Source: Novosphingobium sp.
GTDB taxonomy: Bacteria > Pseudomonadota > Alphaproteobacteria > Sphingomonadales > Sphingomonadaceae
Direction: 5' to 3'
Length of the DNA: 38,654 nucleotides
NCBI GenBank assembly: GCA_019510335.1
Contig: JAEKKO010000088.1
Location: 1-38,654, forward strand
The notes beneath the pieces are model-generated. The model was not told where the DNA came from. It searched no databases and saw nothing but the letters and a program-made list of their open reading frames with translations. Position 1 is the first letter of the stretch; each line of letters begins with the position of its first letter. This document shows positions 12,073 to 15,443 of this stretch, in pieces. The position numbers and the translations under genes are program-made.

Positions 12073-13484
12073 AGGGCGTCGGCACCGACATCGGCACGAT
12101 TCACTTCGTCGGCATCGGCGGGATCGGCATGTCGGGCATCGCCGAGGTCATGCACAATCTCGGCTACCGCGTGCAGGGCTCGGACATCGCCGAGGGCTAC
12201 GTCGTCGAAGGCCTGCGGGCGCGCGGGATCAAGGTGATGATCGGCCATGCCGCGGCCAACCTTGGCGATGCCGCGGTGGTGGTGACCTCGACCGCCGTCA
12301 AGCGCGACAACCCCGAAGTCGTCGCCGCGCTCGAGCATCGCGTCCCGGTCGTTCGCCGGGCGGAGATGCTGGCCGAGCTGATGCGGCTCAAGAACACCGT
12401 CGCCGTCGCCGGGACCCACGGCAAGACCACCACCACCTCGATGATCGCCGCGCTGCTCGATGCCGGCGGGATCGATCCGACGGTGATCAACGGCGGGATC
12501 ATCAACAGTTACGGCTCCAACGCCCGGCTCGGCGCCAGCGAGTGGATGGTCGTCGAAGCCGACGAGAGCGACGGCAGTTTCCTCCGCCTCGACGGGACGC
12601 TTGCGGTCGTCACCAACATCGATCCCGAGCACCTCGACCACTACGGCAGCTTCGACGCGGTCAAGGAGGCGTTCGTCGAGTTCATCGAGAACGTTCCGTT
12701 CTACGGCGCGGCGGTGCTGTGCATCGACCATCCCGAAGTCCAGGCGGTGATTCCGCGGGTCCGCGATCGGCGGGTGATCACTTATGGCTTCTCGGCCCAG
12801 GCCGACGTGCGCGGCGAGGCGGTGACGCCGGTCCCAGGCGGCAACCGCTTCACCGCAGTGGTGCGCCAACGCGACGGCGTTCAGCGGCGGATCGAGTCGA
12901 TCGAGCTGCCGATGCCGGGGCGGCACAACGTCCAGAACGCCCTCGCCGCGGTCGCGGTGGCGATCGAGATGGGCTGTTCCGACGGCTGCATCCGCACCGG
13001 CTTCGCCCGCTTCGGCGGGGTCAAGCGGCGCTTCACCAAAGTCGGCGAAGTCGGCGGCGTCAGCATCATTGACGATTATGCCCATCACCCGGTGGAAATC
13101 CGCGCGGTGCTCGCCGCCGCGCGCGAGGGCGTCCGCGGGCGGGTCATCGCGGTCGCCCAGCCGCACCGCTATACCCGCTTGCGCGACCTGATGGACGAGT
13201 TCCAGACCGCCTTCAACGATGCCGACGTGGTCTATGCCGCCCCGGTCTACCCGGCCGGCGAGGCGGCGGTCGACGGCGTCGACAGCGCCGCGCTGGTGGC
13301 CGGGCTCAAGGAACGCGGCCACCGCGCGGCATTCGTCGTGCCCGACCGGCGGGCGCTCGCCGAAGCACTCGCGACGAGCATCGAGCCAGGTGACGTGGTG
13401 GTCTGCCTCGGCGCCGGCGACATCACCAAGTGGGCCGCCGGCCTTGCCGACGCGATCGCCGGGCAGGGGGCCAAGGCGGCGTGA
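12069..13484 (+). CDS. murC: UDP-N-acetylmuramate-L-alanine ligase MurC
   Basis: [49 protein letters not shown] motifs; ATGA overlap with murG. Confidence 0.97.
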
Positions 13485-14329
13485 TGGCGCAAGCGATCCC
13501 ATTGAAGGCGAGCGAAGTCGAAGTCCCCCGACTGCGCTCGGGACGAACGGAGGGCGGCGGCAAGCTCACCGCCGATGCGCCGCTCGCGCCGCTGGTGTGG
13601 TTCAAGGCCGGCGGGGCGGCCGAGTGGCTGTTCGAGCCCAAGGATTTGGCCGACCTTCGGGCGTTCCTCGCCGATCTCGATCGGCAAGTGCCGGTGATGG
13701 CGTTGGGGCTCGGCTCCAACCTGATCGTCCGCGACGGCGGCGTGCCCGGCGTGGTCGTGCGGCTCGGCAAGGCGTTCGCGCGCGTCCAGAAGCGCGATGC
13801 GACGACGCTCGATTGCGGCGGGGGAGCCTCCGGCATCCTCGTCTCCTCGACCGCGCGGGATGCGGGAATCGCCGGGCTCGAGTTCCTCCGCTCGATTCCG
13901 GGCACGGTCGGGGGTTTCGTGCGGATGAACGGCGGCGCCTACAGGCGCGAGGTCAAGGACATTCTTGTCGATTGCGACGTCGTCCTCCGCTCGGGCGAGC
14001 TGGTGACGCTGCCGCTGGCGGCGCTCGGCTACAGCTATCGCCACTCGGAGCTGCCGGACGGCGCCATCGTCGTCGCCGCGCGGTTCCGCGGCGCGCCCGG
14101 CGAGCCGCAGGCGATCCAGGCCGAGATGGACCGCATCTCCGCCTCGCGCGAAGCCTCGCAGCCGCTGCGCAGCAAGACCGGCAGCGAGAAGCACACCAAC
14201 TTCCTGATCAACACCGGCAGCGCGACCGCCGGCGAGATCGAGGCGCTCGGCGAAGACGTGCGGCGCCGCGTGCGCGAGAGCCAGGGCGTCGAGCTGGAGT
14301 GGGAAATCCAGCGGGTGGGGCGCAAGTGA
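13484..14329 (+). CDS. murB: UDP-N-acetylenolpyruvoylglucosamine reductase MurB
   Basis: GLGSNLIVRDGGVPGVVVRLG, IPGTVGGFVRMNGGAY, SYRHSELP motifs; unusual N-terminal segment IPLKASEVEVPRLRSGRTEGG encoded by a palindromic repeat. Confidence 0.94.
   Translation: MAQAIPLKASEVEVPRLRSGRTEGGGKLTADAPLAPLVWFKAGGAAEWLFEPKDLADLRAFLADLDRQVPVMALGLGSNLIVRDGGVPGVVVRLGKAFARVQKRDATTLDCGGGASGILVSSTARDAGIAGLEFLRSIPGTVGGFVRMNGGAYRREVKDILVDCDVVLRSGELVTLPLAALGYSYRHSELPDGAIVVAARFRGAPGEPQAIQAEMDRISASREASQPLRSKTGSEKHTNFLINTGSATAGEIEALGEDVRRRVRESQGVELEWEIQRVGRK
13509..13550. repeat. Palindromic repeat element inserted in frame in the 5' end of murB
   Basis: CGAGCGAAGTCG (13509-13520) and CGACTGCGCTCG (13529-13540) form an inverted repeat (11/12) with loop AAGTCCCC, followed by GGACGAACGG. 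Confidence 0.7.
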
Positions 14330-14350
14330 GCGGAGCCGCGCAACTCCGCA

Positions 14351-14479
14351 CCGGGATGGGGAGGGGGACCACCCGCAGGGTGGTGGAGGGGGGAAGCCGG
14401 TCGGCGCACGCACTCGTTGGTCGCGTCAACACGAGAGCCCCCTCCACCGCCGTTCCGGCGGTCCCCCTCCCCATCCCGG
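14351..14479. repeat. Nested inverted-repeat element (two REP-like hairpin units in opposite orientation) between murB and ddl
   Basis: Left arm 14351-14392 and reverse complement of right arm 14438-14479 agree at 37/42 positions; each arm holds its own 7-bp hairpin (ACCACCC-GCA-GGGTGGT; reverse complement ACCGCCG-GAA-CGGCGGT). Confidence 0.9.
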
Positions 14480-14492
14480 GGAGGAATTTGGC

Positions 14493-15443
14493 ATGAGCCT
14501 CCACGTCGTCGTGCTGATGGGCGGGTGGTCGTCCGAGCGCGAAGTGTCGCTGCTCAGCGGCAACGGCGTCGCCGATGCGCTCGAGGCGCGCGGCTATCGC
14601 GTCACTCGCATCGACATGGATCGCCAGGTCGCGCTGCGCCTTGCCGAAGCCAGGCCCGACATCGTCTTCAACGCGCTCCACGGCGCGCCCGGCGAGGACG
14701 GCACGGTCCAGGGGATGATGGACCTGATGGGCCTCGCCTACACCCATTCGGGCCTGACCACCTCGGTCATCGCGATCGACAAGGAGCTGACCAAGCAGGC
14801 GCTGATCCCCCACGGGGTGCCGATGCCGGGCGGGCGGATCGTCGCGTCGGAGGAGGTTCACGAGCGCGATCCGCTGCCGCGGCCCTACGTGCTCAAGCCG
14901 ATCAACGAAGGCTCGTCGGTCGGGGTGGCGATCGTCACCGCCGAAAGCAACTTCGGCAACCCGATCGCGCGCGATGCCGCCGGGCCGTGGCAGGAGTTCG
15001 AACGCCTGCTCGCCGAGCCCTACATCCGCGGCCGCGAGCTGACCGCGGCGGTGATCGGCAGCGGCGAGAATGCCCGCGCGCTGATGGTCACCGAGCTCAA
15101 GCCCAAGTCCGGCTTCTACGATTTCGCCGCCAAGTACACGGACGGGATGACCGAGCACGTCTGCCCGGCCGAGTTGCCCGACGTGATCACCGAGGCGTGC
15201 AAGGAGCTGGCGCTGCGGGCGCACCGGCTGCTCGGCTGCGGCGGGTGCAGCCGCTCCGACTTCCGCTGGGACGACGAGCAGGGCCTCGACGGGCTGTTCC
15301 TGCTCGAGGTCAACACCCAGCCGGGGATGACTCCGCTGAGCCTGGTTCCCGAGCAGGCGCGGCACATGGGGATGGACTACGGCGACCTGGTCGAGGCGAT
15401 CATCGCCGATGCGCTGGTCGAGCGGCGGGAGCCGGTGGCATGA
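14493..15443 (+). CDS. ddl: D-alanine-D-alanine ligase
   Basis: VVVLMGGWSSEREVSLLSG, NALHGAPGEDGTVQGM, KPINEGSSVGV, LLEVNTQPGMTPLSLVPEQA motifs; SD GGGGAGGA at 14478-14485. Confidence 0.96.
   Translation: MSLHVVVLMGGWSSEREVSLLSGNGVADALEARGYRVTRIDMDRQVALRLAEARPDIVFNALHGAPGEDGTVQGMMDLMGLAYTHSGLTTSVIAIDKELTKQALIPHGVPMPGGRIVASEEVHERDPLPRPYVLKPINEGSSVGVAIVTAESNFGNPIARDAAGPWQEFERLLAEPYIRGRELTAAVIGSGENARALMVTELKPKSGFYDFAAKYTDGMTEHVCPAELPDVITEACKELALRAHRLLGCGGCSRSDFRWDDEQGLDGLFLLEVNTQPGMTPLSLVPEQARHMGMDYGDLVEAIIADALVERREPVA

Follow-up and report, generated by a model that had tools for sequence, protein, structure and literature searches.

Between murB and ddl of a Novosphingobium sp., in a stretch of 38,654 nucleotides (contig JAEKKO010000088.1, hereafter the window), lies a pair of inverted palindromic units that we read, with a probability of about 0.6, as a short, non-autonomous REPIN-like element, the long form of which encodes a DUF559 protein that would act on the hairpins and drive their copying. 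The element has a distinct anatomy and sharp ends, is dispersed in many copies, and is missing from orthologous sites in related species. Moreover, DUF559 genes are bracketed by the same repeats, the type of repeat follows the DUF559 clade, and repeats and clade occur together at the level of whole genomes. It is our inference that the protein would bind or cut these repeats and move them, by a process that includes a copying step.

The inverted pair between murB and ddl

The 42-nt inverted arms described in the first-pass annotation are present letter for letter at 14351-14392 and 14438-14479, and the ungapped inverted pair extends further, to 14342-14392/14438-14488 (Table 1). The five differences between the arms are also as had been described: two compensatory pair changes (A-T to G-C and C-G to G-C) and one base in the loop, with identical arm flanks of 20 nt and 9 nt. 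In addition to the stems noted at that time, each unit also carries CCTCCCC-n-GGGGAGG as an outer hairpin. A pattern with fixed arms gave two matches in the window and none in 100 dinucleotide shuffles, while the pair folds at -105.2 kcal/mol as RNA (z = -7.7) and with z = -6.4 as DNA; the arm pair is therefore beyond chance.

Table 1. Features of the murB-ddl region, in window coordinates.
Feature	Position	Strand	Remarks
murB, upstream neighbour	13430..14329	+	stop TGA 14327-14329
Left outer hairpin H1, degenerate CTCCGCACCGGGATGGGGAGG	14344..14364	+	family consensus ATCCTCCCC-n-GGGGAGG
REP unit 1, type A: GGGGAGGGGGACC-ACCCGCAGGGT-GGTGGAGGGGG	14358..14392	+	stem 14368-14374/14378-14384, loop 14375-14377
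Spacer, 45 nt	14393..14437	no strand	long element forms have the DUF559 gene here
REP unit 2, type A, inverted	14438..14472	-	stem 14446-14452/14456-14462, loop 14453-14455
Right outer hairpin H1, CCTCCCC-ATCCC-GGGGAGG	14466..14484	+	intact, element end
Shine-Dalgarno-like GGGGAGGA of ddl	14478..14485	+	from the right end of the element; putative function
ddl, downstream neighbour	14493..15443	+	

The murB stop could be located in 16 relatives, and in 12 of these it overlaps the ddl start (8 nt, stop to codon 2). The two genes are 163 nt apart in the window, and the overlap in the relatives identifies the pair as an insertion. Other, independent changes at this junction, upstream of ddl, were seen in L072 (G020), L069 (G022) and L071 (G007), in the form of an H1 hairpin at a contig edge, the remnant GGGGGAGGAT and unrelated inserted sequence. 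G006 and G007 have a long element between pntAa and pntAb, a site that is empty in G002, G014, G017 and G021. Empty sites are read here at the level of species, with one genome per species; in the near-strain pair G015 and G027, rearrangement of the intergenic region has gone too far for such a reading.

The Shine-Dalgarno-like sequence of ddl is paired in the local fold (14438-14510) and partly open in long-range folds that include both unit 1 and unit 2, and our guess is that the element could affect ddl translation. Other signals considered at the element were discarded: neither the GC hairpin with U run of an intrinsic terminator nor a promoter was found, and a structured RNA family was not recovered either, a tRNA being the only match in Rfam at gathering scores.

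A dispersed repeat family and its DUF559 genes

When the genome of the window (G000; 395 contigs, 81% complete) was searched for the arm pattern, nine strict copies were returned, or 15 without the final G, and no match to the reversed pattern, so the element is not unique. Congeners hold up to 90 type-A copies per genome. Such units had been said in the first-pass annotation to occur between genes in sphingomonads, and the multi-copy matches in this genome and its congeners bear out their dispersal in these bacteria. Among 18 distinct 35-nt copies, pairing is retained in 98.4% of stem cells and two-sided changes occur at all four inner stem pairs, the outer three being invariant as positions fixed by the search pattern. 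In total there are 20 two-sided changes versus 5.6 in shuffles, none of 500 shuffles being as high. In this family the arms are constant, the stem cores vary compensatorily, and close unit pairs stand in + then - orientation, 24-54 nt apart; the partner of many type-A units is of another kind, type B (CTCCGTC-stem-CCACCTCC). The element consists, as REPINs and BIMEs do, of two palindromic REPs, inverted, a short distance apart and present in many dispersed copies. Dispersal and covariation together uphold the original view of a BIME/REPIN-like pair of REP-type elements whose fold is kept by compensatory change.

The full element reads CCTCCCC-n-GGGGAGG-hairpin-GGTGGAGGGG-spacer-mirror image-GGGGAGG, with a T just before it and an A just after it. 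It comes in two size classes that have the same ends, one of about 140 bp, as in the window, and one of about 450 bp in which one DUF559 (PF04480) gene replaces the spacer. The T and the A next to the element are each retained in 97 of 102 distinct complete elements, conservation drops off within a few bases outside the ends, and target duplication shows no excess over shuffled flanks. Derivation of the short forms by internal deletion of the DUF559 form was considered and rejected, the spacers scoring barely above shuffled sequence (top score 15 versus 13). In one genome, G101, near-identical 140-bp short elements (L268-L272) have about 25 nt of outside sequence in common, and are therefore either embedded in a larger repeat of the same genome or carried along with one.

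Neighbourhood reading revealed that DUF559 genes adjoin some of the type-A copies. PF04480 was found in 41 of 61 genomes, and the two flanks are mutually inverted repeats at 50 of 85 DUF559 loci, all clades included, versus 3 of 236 control positions. An independent set was obtained by scanning the A/B-clade profile over named GTDB genomes, at the protein level only and with the best 80 kept; these come from Novosphingobium, Sphingomonas, Erythrobacter, Sphingopyxis, Sphingobium, others and one Brevundimonas, and some of the loci belong to genomes used earlier. Of these best 80 loci, 78 could be scored, and 73 of them are bracketed by inverted repeats, as against none of 153 displaced positions on the same contigs; among all 80, A/B repeats are found on both sides at 66 loci, on one side at 12 and on neither at 2.

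The repeats at DUF559 loci fall into types A/B, I, II, III, V and VI, as assigned by regular expressions of our own, which leave 31 rows without a typed repeat. Repeat type tracks the DUF559 tree (11 label changes versus 47.6 when shuffled, 0 of 200 shuffles reaching this). The A/B clade is a single branch (SH-aLRT 96) that comprises 22 A/B-flanked DUF559s and one untyped row, L122, in which A- and B-like sequence is present in the downstream flank. At L120 and L121 the DUF559 frame extends into the downstream repeat, so that the tail of the protein is encoded by the palindrome. Furthermore, trpA lies directly downstream of type-I-bracketed DUF559 genes (L110, L119), an in-operon position like that of the window element.

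Gene and repeats also co-occur across genomes. With the A/B clade called at E < 1e-30, the median number of type-A copies in 120 congeneric genomes is 10 in those with the clade versus 0 in those without, and 11 versus 0 when only genomes at least 90% complete are considered. In the latter, type A is present in 47/47 genomes with the clade versus 15/48 without, and at least eight copies are present in 31/47 versus 4/48 (Fisher p = 3e-9, with kinship ignored; the compared genomes have common ancestry, and co-occurrence p-values therefore overstate independence). Since the two flanks of the gene itself inflate low counts, the higher threshold gives the fairer comparison. Type V behaves in the same way: its repeat is present in 5/5 genomes with a type-V DUF559 versus 1/56 others, there as a single copy (exact p about 1e-6; the type-V gene of G031 is a fragment). 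More than one copy of this repeat, CCCCTCNTCTTNAGANGAGGGGNTTGGGGGTGG (L140, L142, L144, L145), is found only in G011, G028, G031 and G034, all of which have a type-V DUF559. Many type-A repeats without an A/B-clade DUF559 occur in G070, G026, G075, G124 and G000 (81% complete). G070 has 38 type-A copies and no A/B-clade member while being listed as 100% complete, and no A/B-clade DUF559 was found in the 81%-complete assembly of the window. These two genomes indicate that the repeats can outlive the gene or do without it.

The DUF559 partner, encoded outside the window, matches PF04480 and has a predicted nuclease fold with conserved acidic and His residues. Its AlphaFold model (mean pLDDT 87) matches PDB 3hrl, a gonococcal DUF559 protein (E 4e-6), the catalytic domain of the homing endonuclease I-Bth0305I (E 3e-4) and, more weakly, Vsr (0.03), and the nuclease fold is accordingly a predicted one of the Vsr / EDxHD-homing-endonuclease kind. 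Outside the suf clade, E54, G57 and D69 are retained by all 66 sequences and H60 by 65 of them. Within that clade (24 rows, for some of which the suf-operon position was read directly) the active-site residues are mostly lost and there are no typed repeats, so that an intact active site and the repeats go together. The suf-clade DUF559s are probably domesticated relatives of the mobile-looking nucleases. The sole DUF559 detected in the genome of the window, at G000:C57:4959-5270 (L165), belongs to this clade and is without most of the active-site residues, which means that the autonomous partner is unseen or lost. Its suf-clade relatives are L124, L125, L162, L164, L166-L177, L179, L180, L182-L184 and L186.

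Candidates for moving the repeats

In the reading that we favour, the cognate DUF559 protein would recognise the hairpins, probably in a single-stranded or cruciform state, and would nick at or near the element ends, between T and CCTCCC on one side and between GGGAGG and A on the other. Repair or replication could then insert a copy at a new intergenic position, with no duplication of the target. Two observations weigh against this reading: some genomes have many type-A repeats and no A/B-clade DUF559, and the short spacers bear no clear resemblance to the interior of the DUF559 form. The wider proposition, that DUF559 proteins, as small Vsr/EDxHD-fold nucleases, are a class of transposition enzyme undescribed in the literature searched, which disperses the palindromic repeats around its own genes, in at least six families each with its own clade or clades, stands in our judgement at about even odds.

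DUF559 might instead be a homing-endonuclease-like passenger in a site that it recognises, with the repeat pairs spread by other means, which we consider unlikely. Such a passenger would fit the match of the DUF559 fold to the EDxHD homing endonuclease I-Bth0305I, the position of the gene, exactly that of the spacer in short elements, and the genomes that have repeats without the gene. However, a homing nuclease should fill many sites, yet there are one to few clade members versus up to 90 repeats, and the six typed repeat families mostly retain DUF559 clades of their own. That DUF559 serves the cell in repair or defence as a resident enzyme, and that the palindromes are regulatory hairpins (for mRNA stability, insulation or translation control) rather than mobile ones, is quite improbable. 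The tens of copies distant from DUF559, the sharp ends and the empty orthologous sites argue against regulatory hairpins, as does the absence of an intrinsic terminator at the element, even if the window element provides ddl with a ribosome-binding site within a hairpin. A resident enzyme finds a precedent in Caulobacter, where the DUF559 protein VsrA is needed for a cytosine methyltransferase mutant to mount a DNA damage response (PMC12907096), but the DUF559s that are without active-site residues are also without repeats.

Inverted pairs, compensatory stems and lack of target duplication all resemble REPINs, and the first-pass annotation had suggested a RAYT-type partner. This suggestion is not supported: the genome of the window gave no match to Y1_Tnp, 0 of 30 Y1 loci in relatives have type A/B repeats within about 1.5 kb, and the high-copy genomes G026 and G031 are without a Y1 match, which makes a classical BIME/REPIN moved by a RAYT (Y1, HUH) transposase very improbable. 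Highly doubtful, too, is a MITE of a DDE transposase, to which the terminal inverted repeats and the TGAGC on both sides of the murB-ddl copy could have pointed. As a target duplication TGAGC was rejected, since it coincides with the stop and start codons and none is general among the 102 distinct elements, where target duplication is not above chance; moreover, it is a DUF559 gene that was found within the same ends.

Comparison with known systems

Searches of open-access literature turned up no prior connection of DUF559 with REPs, though priority is not certain. DUF559 is a common, often multi-copy and otherwise unexplained family of nucleases, for which the association described here suggests a function. 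The closest comparison is with REPIN-RAYT systems (PMC2817692, PMC3116915, PMC8266576), which likewise have short intergenic pairs of inverted palindromes, many per genome, few copies of an associated nuclease gene that these repeats bracket, no visible target duplication, and orphan repeat populations. In contrast to these, the enzyme here has a predicted Vsr/EDxHD fold (DUF559) and is not an HUH tyrosine transposase; there is no GTAG tag, the window units having no GTAG tetranucleotide at one end, and the stem cores vary while the arms are fixed. If DUF559 does copy the hairpins, short DNA could be dispersed without an HUH or DDE transposase.

The predicted fold and small size also liken DUF559 to the nucleases I-Bth0305I and Vsr. 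Unlike these, DUF559 is not in an intron or intein and is bracketed by palindromic repeats. Within the DUF559 family, VsrA of Caulobacter has an in vivo DNA-damage phenotype that was read as methyltransferase-linked mismatch repair (PMC12907096).

In the 2013 survey of REPs (PMC3733652), GTAG REPs are tied to RAYTs, whereas CGTC REPs, mostly alphaproteobacterial, are apparently without a dedicated transposase, and what moves them is left open. CGTC REPs as described there form inverted dimers, like the repeats studied here, and the type-B partners, which have a CCA tail and, next to the stem, CGTC, look like CGTC-tagged REPs in sequence. The type-A units of the window differ, reading CACC where type B reads CGTC, and the combination of a CGTC (or TGTC/CCTC) tag with a CCA tail was not found in them. 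Furthermore, while the survey found no transposase gene associated with CGTC REPs, the A/B repeats bracket DUF559, which is not annotated as a transposase. The DUF559 association thus offers one concrete candidate enzyme for the dispersal of CGTC-type REPs. If DUF559 does represent a class of transposition enzyme, it would be the non-HUH equivalent of REPIN-RAYT and would settle what mobilises the CGTC-type REPs.
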